From Escallonia rubra (taxonomy: Eukaryota > Streptophyta > Magnoliopsida > Escalloniales > Escalloniaceae), in assembly GCA_033065855.1 (NCBI GenBank), contig JAVXUO010001149.1, positions 62,001 through 126,000 on the forward strand: a DNA stretch of 64,000 bases, written 5' to 3'. This document shows positions 53,276-64,000 of this stretch, piece after piece (within the stretch, counting starts at the first letter, position 1; the number at the start of each line of letters is the position of its first letter). Under the pieces are notes generated by a model. It was not told the DNA's origin. It did not search any database and saw only the letters and a program-made list of their open reading frames with translations. A program made the position numbers and the translations under genes.

Positions 53276-55970
53276 TCAAGCTAGCGCGATTTCGCGCGAA
53301 ACTTTTTTGAGAACCCTAGGATGTTGGAAAGTTCCATTCCTCAGGAATTCGGGCCATTCCGAAGCCGGTAGCAATTCTTCGCCGAACGGGCTTTTAAGCG
53401 CTCGATCCGGACACCGGTTCGGGATTTTTTGACGAAAAATTCCTAAAATGCTTTTTAGATCAAGGATGAACTCAGCAACCTTAGAATAGCGTCTTAAAGC
53501 ACTTTTGAGATTTTTTCCGATGCCAGGGGGCATTTCGGTTATTCGCCGCCGGAGAGGGGTATTTTCGTAATTTTGCCCCTTTCAACTTTTTCGAGCGCCT
53601 TTTCAGTCCGTAAATATAAGCAAACCCTAGCGAAGGCGGGAAGTTCCATTCGCCACGAATTCGGGCCATTCCGAAGCCGGTAGCAATTTTTTGCCGAACG
53701 GGCTTTTAAGCACTCGATCCGGACACCGATTCGGGATTTTTTGACGAAAATTCCCTAAAATGCTTTCTAAATCAAGGATGAACTCAGCAACCTTAGAATA
53801 GCGTCTTAAAGCACTTTTGAGATTTTTCCCGATGCCAGGGGGCATTTTGGTAATTCGCCGCCCGATAGGGGTATTTTCGTAATTTTGCCCCCTTTCAACT
53901 TTTTTGAATGACTGCTTAGTCCATAAATGTAAGCAAACCCTAAGGATGTTGGAAAGTTCCATTCCCCACAAATTCGGGGCATTCCGAAGCCGGTAGCAAC
54001 TTTTTCTCGAACGGGCTTTTAAGCGCTCGATCCGGACACCGGTTCGGGATTTTTTGACGAAAAATCCCTAAAATGCTTTTTAGATCAAGGATGAACTCAG
54101 CAACCTTAGAAAAGCGTCTTAAAGCACTTTTGAGATTTTTCCCGATGCCAGGGGGCATTTTGGTAATTCGCCACCCGATATTGGTATTTTCGTAATTTTG
54201 CCCCTTTCAACTTTTTTGAATGACTGCTTAGTCCATAAATGTAAGCAAACCCTAAGGATGTTGGAAAGTTCCATTCCCCACGAATTCGGGCCATTCCGAA
54301 GCCGGTAGCAACTTTTTGCCGAACGGGCTTTTAAGCGCTCGATCCGGACACCGGTTCGGGATTTTTTGACAAAAAATCCCTAAAATGCTTTTTAGATCAA
54401 GGATGAACTCAGCAACCTTAGAAAAGCGTCTTAAAGCACTTTTGAGATTTTTTCCGATGCCAGGGGGCATTTTGGTAATTCGCCGCCCGATAGGGGTATT
54501 TTCGTAATTTTGCCCCTTTCAACTTTTTTGAATGACTGCTTAGTCCATAAATGTAAGCAAACCCTAAGGATGTTGGAAAGTTCCATTCCCCACGAATTCG
54601 GGCCATTCCGAAGCCGGTAGCAACTTTTTGCCGAACAGGCTTTTAAGCGCTCGATCCGGACACCGGTTCGAGATTTTTTGACAAAAAATCCCTAAAATGC
54701 TTTTTAGATCAAGGATGAACTCAGCAACCTTAGAAAAGCATCTTAAAGCACTTTTGAGATTTTTCCCGATGCCAGGGGCATTTTGGTAATTCGTCGCCCG
54801 ATAGGGGTATTTTCGTAATTTTGCCCCTTTCAACTTTTTCGCTGGACTGGTCAGTCCGTAAATGTAAGCAAACCCTAGCGAAGGCGGGAAGTTCCATTCC
54901 TCACGAATTCGGGCCATTCCGAAGCCGGTAGCAATTTTTTGCCTATGAAACTTTTAAGCGCTCGATCCGGACACCGGTTCGGGATTTTTTGACGAAAAAT
55001 CCCTAAAATGCTTTCTAGATCAAGGATGAACTCAGAAACCTTAGAATAGCGTCTTAAATCACTTTTGAGATTTTTCCCGATGCCAGGGGGCATTTTGGTA
55101 ATTCGTCGCCCGAGAGGGGTATTTTCGTAATTTCACGCTGTCAACTTTTTCGTGCGTCAATACTGTCCGTAAATGTAAGCAAACCCTAAGGATGTTGGAA
55201 AATTCCATTCCCCACGAATTCGGGCCATTCCAAAGCCGGTAGCAATTTTTTGCCTATGCAACTTTTAAGCGCTCGATCTGGACACCGGTTCGGGATTTTT
55301 TAACGAAAATTCCCTAAAATGCTTTCTAGATCAAGGATGAACTCAACAACCTTAGAATAGCGTCTTAAAGCACTTTTGAGATTTTTCCCGATGCCAGGGG
55401 GCATTTTGGTATTTCGCCGCCCGAGAGGGGTATTTTCGTAATTTTACGCTATCAACTTTTTCGAACGTCTTTCCAATCCGTAAATGTAAGCAAACCCTAG
55501 CGAAGGCGGCTAGGGTTACTCCCCACGAATTCGGGCCATTCCGAAGCCGGTAGCAATTTTTTTGCCGAACGGGCTTTTAAGCGCTCGATCCGGACACCGG
55601 TTCGGGATTTTTTGATGAAAAATCCCTAAAATGCTTTCTAGATCAAGGATGAACTCAGCAACCTTACAATAGCATCTTAAAGCACTTTTGAGATTTTTCC
55701 CGATGCCAGGGGCATTTTGGTAATTCGCCGCCCGAGAGGGGTAATTTGGTAATTTCACGCTGTCAACATTTTCGAACGTCTTTTCAGTCCGTAAATGTAA
55801 GCAAACCCTAGCGACGGCTGATTTGAAGCCGATTCGCTGGGCGTTGGGGTCATAATGAACCCCGGGCCATTTCGGTAATTTACCGCTCATCGGGGGCTAT
55901 TTTCCTTATTTTACATTATACAAATTTTCCGAATGATTTTTAGTTCAGGAAAGGGTGTGAGACACCCGAA
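53276..55970. repeat. Satellite array, ~312-bp monomer, eight copies
   Basis: The landmark '(g)aattcgggccattcc' recurs at 53345, 53657, 53970, 54282, 54594, 54904, 55216 and 55527, at spacings of 312, 313, 312, 312, 310, 312 and 311 bp. All monomers share 'ctcgatccggacaccggttc', 'gatcaaggatgaactca' and 'cccgatgccaggggg'. A degenerate ninth part runs to about 55970 and abuts the LTR. Monomers differ at scattered sites and at the last ~40 bp (two alternative endings, 'aaggatgttggaaagttcc' or 'agcgaaggcgggaagttcc'). Minus-strand open frames recur in every monomer but change frame at the indels, so they are not taken as genes. Confidence 0.93.
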
Positions 55971-56999
55971 AAGTTATTTTAAAGTTGTTGATGCCGAATG
56001 AGGGTCCTTTGCCACGTCGAGGTGCCACAAGGTATGCAGTCTGAGTTGGCTTCCAAGTAGGCCAAGTGGGGGACAGCAGGGATGACGTAAGGGCTGAGAG
56101 CAAGGCTCCTCAGGCAGGTCACGAGGGCTGGCAGTGTCGCGCGGGCAGGGTGACGTCGAACAGGTCCAACAATCGACGGTCCGTGTCAAGAGTGCAACGT
56201 CGAGAGCTCGAAGTCGTAAGTCCAAGTGTCTTTCTCTCACTAGAAATCCAGAGAGAATAGGTTTTAGAGAGAGAAAGTAGAAGTGTCGAATGAGGCAGAA
56301 GTCCTTGAATAAGCTCCAGAATCCACTATATATAGGCACAAATATGCGCGTGTCATCAGCTGACACGTGTCGTCCTCTGGGAGTGACACGTCGCCGTAGA
56401 GGGCCCTGCAGTCTTGATCGTCCGTCGGATTGCCGGTCCCCGAGTTCGCGTCGCCCTGCCCTTGCAGCGTCCCTTTACCTGTCTGAGAAGACTGACCACA
56501 CTGTGGTAGCACGGTCAGAGCAGCCCGTTGCCCCAGCCTCCAGTCCAAGCCCTTACTGAATCCCACGGGATGCGTCAAGAGACGCGCCGAGATCCTGACA
56601 GCGGTGAGGGTTGCCCCTGCAGCCAACTGCCAGGCGTGCTGGACACGATGCCCTACGAAGACCTGCTCCCGTCTCGGAGTGGCTCGCGGTTCATTGCCCC
56701 GACGGTGTCGATGATCGATGGAGGCATCAGCGTACATGCTCATAACTCGATACTCAGAGTCCGTGGCGGTGGGTCCTCGCGCCGGGGCATTATGAGCGGA
56801 GCCCCCTGAAGCTCGTTGTGTGATTGTGCCGGCAATGGCCTTAGGATCGTGAGCTCATTCCCGTTGCGAAGGCCGGGGCCTCCGGTTGATTGTGTCTGCG
56901 ATAATGGGCGTCGCGCATCTACTAGCGATGAGTGAGTGTTGCTGAATGAGTTGAGTGGGGTGATGGCAGTGGTGAGCAGGTCCCCTCCCCCCCTCAAGG

Positions 57000-57290
57000 A
57001 CAAAGGGGTGGCCGACCCCCTCACCAGAGGGGTGGCCGACCCCCTCAGCAAAGGGGTGGCCGACCCCCTCACAAAAAGGGGTGGCCGACCCCTCACCAAA
57101 AGGGTGGCCGACCCCCTCAGCAAAGGGGTGGCCGACCCCCTCAGCAAAGGGGTGGCCGACCCCTTATTAGAGGGGTGGCCGACCCCCTCGGCAAAGGGGT
57201 GGCCGACCCCCTCACCAAAGGGGTGGCCGACCCCCTTATCTGAGGGGTGGCCGACCCCCTCACCAAAGGGGTGGCCGACCCCTCGGGGGG
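57000..57290. repeat. ~21-24-bp minisatellite (aggggtggccgaccccctca)n
   Basis: About thirteen units of 'aaaggggtggccgacccc' plus a variable linker lie head to tail. The unit is nearly self-complementary (ggggtggccgacccc), so either strand could fold into serial hairpins. One related unit ('ggtggccgacccctt') occurs at 11190 in the other LTR copy. Confidence 0.9.
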
Positions 57291-57638
57291 TGTACCTTCG
57301 ATCGTTGTCTGAGTGCTTGCGGCGCGGAGCGCTTTGACCGAGCGATGATGATGTTTAAGTATCGGAGCGTTTTCACCGAGGAATGATGTTGAGCAAGTTC
57401 GACTACCGAGCGTGTGACGTGTCGTGCCACTGGAGCCTTTTAGCGGGCCCTGGGGTGCGGTCCAGAATAGGTTATGAACATAAGCCCCCTGCGTGTGGGG
57501 TACGCAGAGGGGCAACCCGAGCGGGCGCCGCATGCATAAACGGTGTTGGACGTACTGGGAATGGTCGTTGCTTAATGCGAGAGCCTGTTGCGAGGGCCGG
57601 AGCCCCCTGTTGAGTGTGTCGGAGATGGCGAGAAGCTT

Positions 57639-57940
57639 GAGAGCCCATCCCGGATGCGAGGGCCGGAGCCCCCGTCGGTTGATTGTGCGGGTATGGGCCG
57701 GAGCCCCCGGTTGATTGAGACGGCGATGGCTATAAGCTTGAGAGCCCATCCCGGATGCGAGGGCCGGAGCCCCCGTCGGTTGATTGTGCGGGTATGGGCC
57801 GGAGCCCCCGGTTGATTGAGACGGCGATGGCTATAAGCTTGAGAGCCCATCCCGGATGCGAGGGCCGGAGCCCCCGTTGGTTGATTGTGCGGGTATGGGC
57901 CGGAGCCCCTGGTTGATTGTGCCGGCGAGGGTTTGAAGGC
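57639..57940. repeat. 101-bp tandem repeat, three copies
   Basis: The unit starting 'gagagcccatcccggatgcg' begins at 57639, 57740 and 57841 (offset exactly 101 bp twice) with almost no differences, implying recent amplification. It contains 'gggccggagccccc' blocks shared with the surrounding LTR. Confidence 0.92.
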
Positions 57941-58046
57941 TGTGAGTCCGTACTGTCGTGGGGGGTTGGAATGCCGGAGCACGCGAAGCGCGTCAATGAT
58001 GTGGTTGCTGCACGTTTTTTTTTTTTTTTTTTTGGTGGCCCACCTC

Positions 58047-58054
58047 TATAAATA
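58047..58054 (+). promoter_or_regulatory. TATA box for the antisense PMD gene
   Basis: 'cctctataaatagc' is a near-consensus plant TATA box on the plus strand, directly after a T19 run (58015-58033). It would start transcription near 58080, about 730 bp upstream of the PMD frame, and points away from the retrotransposon's own direction. Confidence 0.6.
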
Positions 58055-58399
58055 GCAAAAAGGGGGGGAGAGTGTTTTGGAAAGAAACATTGTGTATTTG
58101 GGAGAGAAAAGATTGAGAGAGAGAGGAGAGAAGAAGAGAGAAGAAAGGGGGGGGGGGGGGAGGCAGGGGGAGGAGGGGTCGGCCGCAGATGGGGGTCGTC
58201 GGGGCCAAGGGGTCGGCGGCGGTGGAGAGAAAGAAAGAAGAGGGGAAGGGGGAAGGAGGGAAGAAAGAGGGGAAATGGGAGGGGGGTCGGCCAATCGAGG
58301 GGGGTCGGCCAATCGCGGAGCGTCGGGCACCCCGGGGGGTCGGCCAACGCGGGAGAGAGGAGAGAGGGAGGGAAGAGAGGGATGAGAGGGGAGGGGGCT

Positions 58400-58740
58400 C
58401 GGCCGCACGAGGGGGGTCGGTCGGGAGCAGGGGAGAGTCGGGGGATGCTTCTTCGGGGGGAAAAGGAAGAGAAGGGAGGAGAGAAAGGGGGTCGGGAGCA
58501 GGAGGTGGTTCGTCGGCGCCGAAGGCGTCGGGATCTGGAGGGAGATCGGCGGGGAAGGTGGGTCGGGAGCTGGAGGGAAGTCATCGGGGGCAGGGGGGTT
58601 GGGAGCTTTGGGAAAGTCGACGGGGGCAGGGGGGTCGGGAGCTGGTGGAAAGTCGGCGGGGGCAGGGGGTCGGGAGCTGGGGGAAGTCGGCGGGGGCAGG
58701 GGGGTCGGGAGCTGGGGGGAAGGCGGCGGCAGGGGGGTCG
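58400..58740. repeat. G-rich minisatellite in the PMD leader
   Basis: Units of about 35-38 bp built on 'ggggcaggggggtcgggagc' repeat with drift. They create Gly/Ser-rich frames on the plus strand and Pro-rich frames on the minus strand. Confidence 0.75.
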
Positions 58741-58812
58741 GCGGTGCCAAAAGCCACGGGCAAGGTCACACCCGCTGAGCCGGTCCCCGTTCTGAAAAAG
58801 TTGAAGCAGTAA

Positions 58813-61800
58813 ATGTGGGTGAAACCACGAGGTGGGGCAGCGAGCGCGGGGCGGCCACCGCGAAATGTGACGACGGAACCAGTGCCGCCTCCGCCAACAG
58901 ATGAAGCCGAAGCTACGGGAGGTGGTGAGACGGGAGTGCCACTTTCATTTGACGATGCGTCGGTGAGGACGTACGATCCGGACCCGGATAAGTCGGTCAC
59001 GCCATTGAGAGTGAAAGGGGTAGTACCGGCCGTGCCTGGCCGGGAGTTGTGGAGGGAGCTGGCCATCCGCGTAGCTGATGGTGCGTTCACAGTGCCATGG
59101 AGTGGTGCGTCGATGAGGGAGGAGCCACGGATGCCGTCACCATATGTGCGGTCCCCTAGCTGGGAGGACGCGCCCGTGCCGTCACCGAGGTATGTGGCGG
59201 GGTTGTTGGTGGAGCATGCGGATATACCTTGGGCACCTGTGGTGTTCAAGGGGCACGGAGCGATGCCGATCGGGTGGGACTTCTGGTGCGATCACATGAT
59301 GGAGGTGCCGAGGTGGGCGGCTTTATTGGATGTGTTGGGGTTGGTGCCGGCGATTGACATTACGGCGAGGGGGGTGGAGCTTTATAGAGACACGTCGGGG
59401 ATGACTTTGCTGTTGTCGCGATGGAGTACTCAGACACACATCTTTGTGACTGAGTTCGGAGAGATTGGGCCGACGCTGCTCGATGTGATGATGCTGACGG
59501 GCTTGCCGATGCATGGAGAGTTGGACGCACGTGTGACGCGGCTGACTAATGATGAATGGGTGTTGCAGACGCAGTTGCTTGATATTTTGGCGGAGACGAA
59601 GCAGCATCGGAAGGCGACATATTGCGGGTGGCTCCGATTGTTCTATGGCACGCCGCAGGTGAGGTCGGGGCAGAAGTTGGGCAATGCGGCTCATTTTGTG
59701 ATGGGGCCGTATCACAAGGACGAGCGATATGAGATGGTGGCCTTTTTGACGATGTACTTGTCGAGGTAAGTATAATGCGTTCGTGTATGTATGTTCGTAG
59801 ATGTGATGCAGGTTGAGATTGTGTATAATGTGTTGGCGTGTTGTTTTGTTTTGCAGGTTCGTGTTTGAAGGGACGCCGGAGGATGGCATATCCGCGAAGG
59901 TGATTCCCCTGGCGATTCGGATGGCGCAGGGGAAGCGTGTTGGGCTAGCTCCCGTGTACCTGGGCACCATGTACTCGCGATTGGATCAGTTCGTGAACGA
60001 TGTGAAGAGGTCGCACGGGTGGTACCAAGTGGCGACCTATGTGGATTGGATGTTCCTGCAGCGGTACTTGTACGAGTGCTTTCCAGACTATCGTCCGACA
60101 GGATATCCGCTCGAGCATCCAGCACCGAGGACGAGGACAGTGATGCACAGCGGTAGATCGCGGGAAGTGGCACTATGGTGCAGCGGGGCGCGGGCATGTG
60201 CATGGGCGGGCATCAAGAGGCCGGAGTGTCCATTGTCGCGTTTGATAGATGCAAGGGAGGCATGCATAGTACGTCCGTACAGAGAGATGCATGCGTCATA
60301 CGGAGTACCCCCTTGGTTGCACGGGCAGGAGATGACGATAGACTTGAGCAGGCGGGGGGTTTTGCCACCGGCGGACGTTGTGCTCTTGGTGGCGTACTTT
60401 CCAGGTTGGCTGCCAGTGATGACGGACGATGGCGCGAAGCCTGCAGAGAACCTTTATTACGTGGCTCGGTATTGCCCGGACCGGTTGTCACGGACATTTG
60501 GTTATGACTTGGAGCCGCCATGTGGGTATCGTAGCCCGTGGAGTGTGACGACCGCCTTTGGATACACGCGGGATGATAGAGTTCGCGAGTGGCCGGCACC
60601 GGTGGTAGCGTGGACGAGGCCTGGGAGAGCATCGGTGGGGGCGGTGACGACGGAGTATGCACAGTGGTGGGAGCGCCTGCGGGCGGTCTGGGCGGAGTGG
60701 TTGGCACAGCCATCGGGGACACGACGGCTGGTTGACGTGTACGCCTGTGACCGGGCATTGAGCTTGATATCGATGACAGCGGCGAGGCAGGCCGGTATGC
60801 TGGTGCTAGTGACGGGGAGTGCGGTTGTGAGCTCAGAGATGGATCCCGATGAGGAGGGCGAGGAGTCCGAGGAGGAGGCTCCAGAGGAGGACTGTGGGGA
60901 GGAGCCAGTGGTGGCGGTACCGCGTGCGCCCGGGGCCGGCAAGGGGCCCTTGTCGTTATTGCGAGTGGGTATGATGGAGGGGGCCCGTCAGGCGAGTGCG
61001 GGTTCTTCAGACTTGCGACTGACAGGATCGAAGAGGCCGCGAGAGGTGTCAGAGGAGCTAGTGGTTGAGGTAGGTCAAACCATGGCCGCTTTTGATTAAA
61101 TCTCGTTTTGCTTGTGCTTGTTGTTTTTTTTGATGTTTATATAAAAAAAAATGCTAACGGTTGCTTTTGGACAGGGGTATGGTGGACATGCGGTGGAAAG
61201 CGGCAGCGATGCACATGTAGCGGTTGAGACTGAGGCGGTGAGAGCAACTGAGGTTGACGAGCCAGTAGGCGGGGATGAGCCGGTAGCGTTGGGCGTGTCG
61301 GGGGCCGTGGCCAGTGGCGGGGTGCGTCCAACACCAGATGGCGAGGAGGGGGCGGATGATGTGTATGGTGGCTTGGTCGACGAGTCGTTAATGTTCGATG
61401 CCAGTGGCTACTGGTGGACAGGCGCGGCGACGGAGGTCACGGCGGTTGAGCGGGGGGATTTGACGGAGTTGGAGCCTGTAGTGGCGGTTCCGATTCAGGA
61501 GGTGGAGATCCCGGTGCAGCCGGTGCAGGCTGTGGCGGTGGCGTCGTCAGGGTCGGCCGTTGAGGCGAGTGCGACGTTGATGGCGATGCACTCGATGACC
61601 GTCGGTGCACAGGCAGCCGGAGAGGTACATGAGAGGCCTGCGATGGCGTCGAGTGGCACAGCTGTCGGAGAGGCGAGTAGGGGGTCGTCGAGCGGTCAGG
61701 CTGACGTGGTACTATGGGAGAACCTGCAGCTACCTTATGAGACAGTGCGCCGGTTAGAGATGGTGAAGGCGGCGTATCCGCAGACGTTTGCGGGGGTGGA

Positions 61801-62152
61801 CTTGGAGAACCCGGTGCTGCAGAGATGGGTGTATTCGGGTTTTGTGGAGTGGCTGCTTCCGTTTGCGAGTGTTCCTGCGGCGGGCTGGACGACGGGGTTT
61901 ATTGAGCGGTCGCTGAGAGAGTTCGCGACGTTCACTGCCTTGGGTGTGCAGCTAGATTGGTTGGCCGAGTTCCTTAGGTCGAGGAGCGAGGGTAGTGGTG
62001 TGGGCGAGAGGATGTCCTTGGTACGTATGGAGGAGATGTTGCTTGAGAGGCGCCGCCAAGGGTTAGAGGTGGAACGATTAGAGATCAACGGAGAGTTGGT
62101 CGTGATTGATAGAGAGGTGGCGGAGATAGAGAGGCAGCTGACGGATTTGTAG
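58813..62152 (+). CDS. Plant mobile domain (PMD) protein, antisense passenger of the retrotransposon
   Basis: Three exons with GT/AG borders and matching phases: 58813-59765, 59857-61069 and 61175-62152, giving 1,047 aa. The PMD core (about residues 130-560) has 'WCDHMMEVPRWAALLDVLGL', 'TLLLSRWSTQTHIFVTEFGE', 'IGPTLLDVMMLTGLPMHGEL' and, in exon 2, 'LGTMYSRLDQFVNDVKRSHG' and 'YVDWMFLQRYLYECFPDYRP', as in MAIN/MAIL-type and transposon-borne PMD proteins. The later part is acidic and low-complexity, with a C-terminal coiled coil ('RRRQGLEVERLEINGELVVI'). An in-frame TAA (58810-58812) directly precedes the chosen ATG and a TAG ends the frame, yet coiled-coil coding continues in frame to 62326 past another TAG (62213-62215). 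Host MAIN/MAIL1 proteins act in silencing and growth; what the mobile versions do is not known. Confidence 0.85.
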
Positions 62153-62749
62153 AGACGTCTGAGTGATCTTCAGAGGCGGCGGACGGATGTGGAGGTGCGA
62201 GAGGCCGAGCGTTAGAGGCGGCAGGCTGAGTTCGAGGCGGAGCGGTCGGCGCTGCAGGTTCAGCGTCAGGCATTGCAGGCATTTAGCGCTCACCCGGTAG
62301 CCGTTTTGCTATCTAGCTTCCGATAGGTTTATCATAGACTTATTGTCTAGGGAGTGCCCGATAGTGGCCAAAGACGTTTTATGTATGCATAGACATCGAT
62401 TTTGCTGGTACATGAAGTGTGATTGGATGCTGTTTTGTGAACACTGTCGTGGATGCATGGTATAGTCGCTTGTATATTGCAATTGTGCGTTGCGTCTGTT
62501 GGATGTCGGTCTGTGTCCCCCCCCCCCTTCTTTTTTTGTAATCGAGGATAAATACTTGATAACCAGAAATGAAATATAACAGTAAAGGCCAAGTAGAGAG
62601 TGAAAAGATTGTATATTGATAGTGCGTAGATTAAGGAAGCATCTGTACATAACAAAAGAACTCGTAACAAGGAACAAAAGTATATGCTAATACATGTGCG
62701 TGCACACACAAAAGGTCGGGTCGTGGTGGGGGGACATGCCGCAAGCTGA
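62153..62749. other. Region between the PMD gene and the integrase end
   Basis: The first ~170 bp continue the PMD coiled-coil frame ('RRLSDLQRRRTDVEVREAER', then a stop, then QAEFEAERSALQVQRQALQA). The remainder is non-coding and contains a C10 run (62518-62527) and T-run. It forms the 3' untranslated part of the retrotransposon pol transcript on the minus strand. Confidence 0.5.
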
Positions 62750-64000
62750 TCATGCATAGTACTTCTTCAGATAGCGACCATTGACAGGGGCGGTAAGTTG
62801 CCCGTCGTCTGGATTGAGCAAGAGGTACGAACCATTGCTTCTGGCAGTGTGTATTTCAAATGGCCCCTCCCAGTTAGGTGTAAATTTAGGAGCTGACAAA
62901 TTGGCCCGTACATGTTTGGCGGCTTGGAGGACAAGGTCGCCTGCTGCGAAGGAGCGAGGTTTGACGGTCTTCCCGTAGGCTTTGACAAGCTTCTCATGAT
63001 ATGCTTTCATTCGTCGCATGGCAGTAGCTCTCTTTTCATCAAGGCTCTCAAGTGCCACCATTCTGGTTTCCTCTTCCCCGAGACCACTGCTGAGGGATAG
63101 ACGCGCCGAGGCGACGGTGATTTCGGCCGGCACTACACATTCGTCCCCGTAGACGAGGGAGAAGGGCGTGGCCTTCGTAGCCGTGTGTCTGGAAGTTCTG
63201 TAGGCCCAAAGGGCATGACTTAGCTTTTCGGACCAAGAGTTGCTTGCGTCATGGACCATGCGCGACAAAACGTGCAACAGCGTTTTGTTAGAGGCTTCAG
63301 CCTGACCGTTGCCTTGCGGATAATAAGGAGTCGACGTGGCATGATTGATATTGTCTGCTTCCATAAGAGTCCGAACATCTCGATTGATGAATGGCGTGCC
63401 GTTGTCGGATATAATACATCGGGGGATGCCGAAGCGACATATGATGTGGTCGCGTAAAAAGTTGGCGATGGCGCCCCCCGTGGCTCTTCGCAGAGGTATG
63501 GCCTCGACCCATTTTGTGAAACGCTCCGTTGCGACCATGATCCAAATGTGACCTTTTGACGGTGGATGTATGGGGCCGATAAGGTCGAGAGCCCAAGAGT
63601 GGAATGGCCAAGGGGCCGCGATCATACGTAGGTCGGATGCTGGCATGTGTATTCTATCTGCATGTCTCTGGCAGGGTTGACAGTGTCGTACATGGGAGAT
63701 TGCATCGTACTCCATAGTTGGCCAGTAGTACCCCAGCCTGAGTAGTTCTGCATACAACTTCTGAGAACCTTGGTGTTCGCCACAAACACCATTGTGCACT
63801 TCGTTGATCACCTCGACTGCTTGGGCACCCTGCAAGCATCGTAGGGTGCGTCCCGAAAATCCTTTGCGAAACAATTCGCCTTCCGTCTCAAAATACTTGA
63901 CCGACTTGCGTTTGATAGAACGTGCTAAGTTGCGGTCAGATGGTAGCAGTCCGTGGGACAGATATTGCAGGAAGGGCTGGCGCCAGTCACCCTCAATATT
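62750..64000 (-). CDS. Ty3/gypsy integrase, C-terminal end of pol (partial)
   Basis: The frame is open from the window edge (64000) to the stop at 62750, 416 residues seen. In order: a linker after RNase H ('DWRQPFLQYLSHGLLPSDRN'); the HHCC zinc finger (H69, H76, C107, C110 counted from the edge; 'VHNGVCGEHQG' and 'HCQPCQRHA'); the catalytic core with D139 in 'ALDLIGPIHPP', D199 in 'ISDNGTPF' and E235 in 'NGQAEASNKTLL'; and a C-terminal domain with 'KFTPNWEGPFEIHTARSNGS'. All catalytic residues are intact and no stop interrupts it, so the copy may be young. The sequence style fits the Tat-type plant lineage; no chromodomain is seen. Protease, reverse transcriptase and RNase H lie beyond the window. 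Confidence 0.93.
   Translation of the reverse strand, partial: NIEGDWRQPFLQYLSHGLLPSDRNLARSIKRKSVKYFETEGELFRKGFSGRTLRCLQGAQAVEVINEVHNGVCGEHQGSQKLYAELLRLGYYWPTMEYDAISHVRHCQPCQRHADRIHMPASDLRMIAAPWPFHSWALDLIGPIHPPSKGHIWIMVATERFTKWVEAIPLRRATGGAIANFLRDHIICRFGIPRCIISDNGTPFINRDVRTLMEADNINHATSTPYYPQGNGQAEASNKTLLHVLSRMVHDASNSWSEKLSHALWAYRTSRHTATKATPFSLVYGDECVVPAEITVASARLSLSSGLGEEETRMVALESLDEKRATAMRRMKAYHEKLVKAYGKTVKPRSFAAGDLVLQAAKHVRANLSAPKFTPNWEGPFEIHTARSNGSYLLLNPDDGQLTAPVNGRYLKKYYA

Follow-up and report, generated by a model that had tools for sequence, protein, structure and literature searches.

The window analyzed here, a stretch of 64,000 nucleotides from Escallonia rubra (GenBank assembly GCA_033065855.1, contig JAVXUO010001149.1, positions 62,001 to 126,000 of the forward strand), holds near its right end a three-exon plant mobile domain (PMD) gene on the plus strand, between the integrase and the 3' long terminal repeat (LTR) of a retrotransposon read on the minus strand. 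Does this gene belong to the element, and does it matter to the element as a protein, as antisense RNA, or not at all? Comparison of the copies of this element in the genome leads us to regard it as a probable case (probability roughly 0.85) of a selected antisense protein gene belonging to an Ogre-type (Tat) Ty3/gypsy element.

The rest of the element lies to the right of the window, in the 6.9 kb up to the contig end (position 132911; segment L009). The pol ORF runs on into this segment, where a Pfam scan recovered RVT_1, RT_RNaseH, and RVT_3 ahead of the integrase, and beyond pol there are an ORF for an aspartic protease, a match to Retrotrans_gag, and the 5' LTR, which the preliminary description had looked for on this side. 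The order between the LTRs is that of Ty3/gypsy elements (gag, protease, RT, RNase H, integrase). Where Ogre elements have a spliced intron, between gag-protease and pol, the protease ORF of this copy overlaps that of pol in another frame; the gag region of this copy is likewise spread over overlapping ORFs in different frames, and gag is therefore probably broken here. The minus-strand integrase proposed earlier was borne out by two Pfam domains (rve, E = 3.9e-12; Integrase_H2C2, E = 2.3e-11) and by the HHCC and D,D-35-E patterns. Immediately inside the 5' LTR is the primer site TTTGGCGACTCCGCTGGGGA, 18 bases of which pair with the 3' end of a tRNA-Arg(ACG) gene, CCA included; the primer pattern had six matches in the genome, and ARAGORN called tRNA-Arg in three of the four tested. 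Because the 5' LTR lies to the right of the integrase, the PMD gene falls inside the element unit.

Table 1. Features of the element and its PMD gene (positions in the window, except for the 5' LTR)
Feature	Position	Strand	Remarks
3' LTR	55986-57480	minus	TG...CA, 1495 bp; ends from five other copies
TATA-like box in 3' LTR	~56334	minus	
24-bp tandem array in 3' LTR	57001-57282		
Internal stretch, probable polypurine tract to PMD TATA box	57481-58046	none	
101-bp tandem repeats	57594-57928		internal, not LTR
PMD TATA box	58047-58054	plus	TATAAATA
Presumed 5' UTR of PMD gene	58080-58812	plus	purine-rich, repetitive, four upstream ATGs
PMD exon 1	58813-59765	plus	PF10536, E = 1e-13
PMD intron 1	59766-59856	plus	91 bp, GT-AG
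PMD exon 2	59857-61069	plus	PF10536, E = 2.7e-13
PMD intron 2	61070-61174	plus	105 bp, GT-AG
PMD exon 3	61175-62152	plus	stop at codon 1048
Convergent region, PMD stop to integrase stop	62153-62749	none	
Integrase, C-terminal part of pol	62750-64000	minus	Pfam rve and Integrase_H2C2
5' LTR	L009 5532-7011		cut by contig end

The three-exon gene described earlier from the plus strand holds up in its profile match, its GT-AG introns, and its open frame. The spliced protein matches PF10536 well above the cut-off over profile positions 8 to 347 of 347 (E = 2.9e-33; 115.9 bits versus a cut-off of 34.9), and a Pfam scan of it returned PMD only, with Transposase_28 absent. GC content is 0.385 and 0.343 in the introns versus 0.59 to 0.61 in the exons, and the longest open plus-strand frame reaches 430 amino acids, compared with a median of 126 and a maximum of 332 in 300 Markov shuffles. 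The earlier estimate of about 1,050 codons is right for this copy, in which 1047 codons are open, but in 10 of the 18 other copies examined the frame runs on for about 58 codons more. Among solved structures, nothing matched exon 2 up to an E value of 1, and scans of viral contigs with exon 2 and with the integrase returned no relative.

The TATA box reported ahead of the gene was also recovered: TATAAATA occurs at 58047, whereas its expected mean number within 58013-58812 is 0.0 (2000 Markov sequences), and the motif CACCTCTATAAATAG lies 670 to 817 bp upstream of the ATG in 15 of the 18 other copies (L011, L014, and L017 yielded no such motif). We infer that transcription of the PMD gene would start at about the left border of the presumed 5' UTR (Table 1). 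A sigma-70 promoter scan, a type unsuited to plant DNA, found nothing.

If the PMD gene were a host gene that adjoins the integrase by chance, or a one-off capture in the window copy, its presence should be peculiar to this place. We searched the genome (566 Mb in 3222 contigs) with a 601-base piece of the integrase and scored the best 40 of 498 candidates, the window copy included. PMD sequence adjoins the integrase in 39 of these 40 copies, the remaining one (C122) having been left out. An exon 2 match occurs at the expected place and in the expected direction in 31 of the 40, a count based on the best 40 exon 2 DNA matches plus 2 of at least 104 rows of a protein search. In six further copies the fetched sequence includes exon 2 together with part of exon 1 and part of exon 3 (L038 being rearranged); L035, which lies at a contig end, has a piece of exon 3, and L003 has exon 3. 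Conversely, 29 of the best 40 exon 2 matches adjoin one of the best 40 integrase matches. The protein search with exon 2 (103 of 960 candidates scored) gave at least 104 rows, of which about 45 are stop-free and about 59 of 104 contain internal stops.

In 18 longer copies (L010 to L027), which were fetched from the best integrase matches and therefore lean young, the three exons and two introns of the gene follow one another in their proper order without exception. Both introns are GT...AG in all 18; intron 1 starts with GTAAGT in 17 copies and GTAAGC in 1, and intron 2, 84 to 114 bp long, starts with GTAGGT in every one. Ten copies have a PMD frame that reads through to about codon 1105; in the other 8 it is broken (2 with an earlier stop, 6 with frameshifts). 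The convergent region has an identity of 79 to 97% across 26 other copies compared. PMD exons likewise adjoin the integrase in two divergent copies, L049 and L051, and in L049 intron 1 is at the same place as judged by eye.

The borders of the unit were established from five other copies in which the LTR ends could be read at both sides (at a sixth 5' locus, L030, inspection revealed no LTR). The LTR starts with TGTTC in four of the five and ends in ...CATCAACA in all of them. Because the ends were read in these copies, the 3' LTR of the window takes the borders given in Table 1 and not the 55989-58012 claimed at first; the part 57481-58012 is rejected as LTR, since by the LTR ends of the other copies it is internal. 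An exact 5-bp target duplication flanks three of the five (L014/L028, L023/L031, and L025/L032), each with the PMD gene inside its LTR-bounded unit, and L027/L033 has a 4-bp duplication; in L017/L029, where the start of the 5' LTR is unclear, none was found. All of these duplications come from other copies, the 5' end of the window copy being cut by the contig end.

Two outcomes had been named in advance as speaking against a passenger within the element, namely, a family whose other copies never contain the PMD gene and an LTR boundary or target duplication separating this gene from the integrase; the gene is present in the sister copies examined, and no such LTR boundary was found. Host-like PMD frames do exist in this genome, four of them in tandem on one contig as single open frames, and would be in keeping with a host gene next to the element. 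However, the gene recurs in sister copies, lies between the LTRs of the unit both here and in copies flanked by target duplications, and is carried by both divergent copies, and the host-neighbor explanation, which we consider hardly credible, is rejected on the strength of the sister copies. The four tandem frames (C922:1278226-1296817, L041 to L044) are stop-free in the match and have the best PMD scores among the matches listed (373 to 384 bits). They are only 23 to 24% identical to the element PMD, which argues that the latter is not a recent capture of them.

A gene carried along in copy after copy may still be without function. The PMD could have arrived as a nested DNA transposon (a MULE-type PMD unit) that is now carried as an inert part of the element, an explanation made conceivable by reports from Amborella and several grasses of PMD-C members fused with MULE transposases (PMC5418596). 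Position and introns are, however, the same in all 18 copies, and the substitutions point to constraint on the protein. Across 153 pairs of the 18 copies, dN/dS (NG86, ratio of means) was 0.218 for the PMD and 0.108 for the integrase. We also redistributed the distinct changes at random, each within its trinucleotide context (500 runs). The ratio of distinct nonsynonymous to synonymous changes was 0.90 for the PMD versus an expected 2.03 (1.59 to 2.58), that is, 0.44 of expectation, and 0.52 versus 2.02 for the integrase (0.26 of expectation). Stop changes in the PMD numbered 9, compared with 17.2 expected under the same context-matched placement. This placement gives a milder constraint than NG86. 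Compared with the divergent copies L049 and L051, at a dS of about 0.9 that is near saturation, dN/dS was 0.18 for the PMD and 0.06 and 0.04 for the integrase.

Judging from these ratios, the PMD protein is under purifying selection, although it is less constrained than the integrase, with a dN/dS roughly double that of the integrase within the family and three to four times that of the integrase relative to L049 and L051; exon 3 is its least constrained exon. Selection on the protein at a dS of about 0.9 argues against a functionless MULE-derived passenger, and we consider this explanation very improbable, while a MULE-type unit is possible as the ancient origin of the PMD gene. The preliminary description had suggested that the passenger is, or was recently, a working part of the element. 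Protein selection favors the working part, but "recently" is unsupported for the window copy, the LTRs of which differ by a K of 0.0818 over the last 880 bp (about 8%). The LTR pairs of the five other copies have K values of 0.0161, 0.0255, 0.0046, 0.0115, and 0.0138. Since each LTR of the window copy resembles LTRs elsewhere in the family (0.04 with L010, 0.035 with L014) more closely than it resembles its partner, this copy would be either an old insertion or a product of recombination between elements, the latter being possible.

The PMD and gag-pol transcription units converge and would overlap, and double-stranded RNA is thus a possible by-product. The antisense unit could accordingly act mainly as RNA, pairing with the genomic RNA and giving rise to siRNAs that limit the element, with the protein incidental. 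Such a role would fit the 175 PHAS loci reported at PMD genes in the tea plant (PMC10673657) and the double-stranded RNA regulation proposed for antisense ORFs (PMC7264820). For a purely RNA-based role, on the other hand, selection at the amino acid level and conserved splice borders would be superfluous, and we regard it as improbable as the main explanation; an effect of double-stranded RNA may add to the role of the protein.

The selected protein gene resides in an element of a recognizable kind. In its pol ORF, RVT_3 (E = 3.7e-17, residues 601 to 711), which we read as the second RNase H (aRH), follows RT_RNaseH (434 to 533) and precedes the integrase. A second RNase H marks the Tat lineage, and its place between RH and integrase marks Ogre/Retand (PMC6317226). 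Three features found here favor Ogre over Retand: the tRNA-Arg primer site, given for Ogre in PMC9289625; the PMD as the extra ORF; and the absence of Transposase_28, which accompanies antisense ORFs in Retand (PMC11963269). This assignment, based on domain order, primer site, and PMD (which some Ogre elements lack) rather than on an RT tree, is indicative only. No chromodomain was found after the integrase, rve and Integrase_H2C2 being the sole Pfam domains recovered from the integrase ORF.

Elements with such a gene have been described before. According to PMC6317226, 57% of Ogre elements contain a PMD, and our element shares with them the position of the aRH, the lack of a detected chromodomain, the PMD ORF, and tandem arrays; in the accessible text of that paper, the likeness covers the presence of the PMD and not the orientation or introns of its ORF. 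The PMD was the commonest noncanonical domain when Gypsy consensus sequences were surveyed (PMC9289625), it is described as restricted to angiosperms in a review (PMC8616336), and PMD-A1 and PMD-A2 are reported to be encoded exclusively by Gypsy elements (PMC5418596). The PMD studied here likewise lies within a Gypsy element, far from the best-scoring PMD frames of the genome, a likeness of setting and divergence rather than of tree position. ORFs lying antisense between pol and the 3' LTR are also known (PMC7264820, PMC11963269), among them gene23 of maize Grande, which, according to these papers, is driven by its own promoter and yields a nuclear product. Grande gene23 has the same position and orientation as our gene, but our element has a PMD instead of gene23/Transposase_28, contains two introns, and has a promoter recognized as a motif only. 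The window element is therefore a well-documented example of an already known kind of PMD-bearing element. A search by title, which left most of the subscription literature outside its range, returned no paper on selection on element-borne PMDs.

How might an antisense protein gene serve the element? The RNA that an LTR element copies back into DNA during replication is that of the gag-pol strand. The PMD introns would survive because they are not recognized on this reverse-transcribed strand, which fits the data, and the element illustrates how introns can pass through retrotransposition thanks to antisense orientation. As an accessory protein gene between pol and the 3' LTR, opposite to gag-pol, the PMD gene would be transcribed by the host from its own promoter, and the transcript would be spliced and translated. 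The protein might then help the element; the likeliest way would be to interfere with, or to mimic, the MAIN/MAIL1-PP7L silencing pathway of the host. Arabidopsis MAIN and MAIL1 have the PMD in common with our protein, a likeness by domain alone; they differ in being host genes that act in silencing of transposable elements (PMC7156037, PMC5418596). An action on silencing is, by this analogy, a tentative step of the explanation. A fuller version, which we put forward as doubtful, is that the element PMD blocks MAIN/MAIL1-PP7L, that the antisense placement permits an intron-bearing, separately regulated anti-silencing gene, and that host and element PMDs are engaged in an arms race. Use of PMDs by transposable elements as a counter-silencing strategy has already been proposed (PMC8616336), and PMD function is described as unknown in the accessible text of the papers cited. 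Element-borne PMD genes are regarded as ancestors of host silencing factors or as their rivals, and this family, with its many copies, some young insertions, open frames, conserved promoter motif, and a protein under purifying selection, offers a good system in which to test whether such genes help the element.

Several dozen other PMD places, on many contigs, share the same score of 168.7 bits and nearly all have a 468-amino-acid frame; they apparently represent another repeat family that bears a PMD and has recently undergone a burst.

The surroundings of the window copy have some features of their own. Close to the 3' end of the element, at 53312-55810, a 312-bp repeat occurs in eight tandem copies, with observed/expected ratios of 1.24 for CpG and 0.59 for TpG (0.64 and 1.14 in the first 50 kb of the window). 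The 671 bp just outside the 3' LTR (55315-55985) are a 96% match to the flank of copy L012 on another contig (C1654); most of this flank is 312-bp repeat, and the 175 bp adjoining the LTR lie outside that repeat. The two copies may occupy one insertion site, as a duplicated locus or an uncollapsed haplotype. Farther to the left, 8660-9351 matches a portion of the LTR (56002-56694) at 79% and represents a remnant of a related element.
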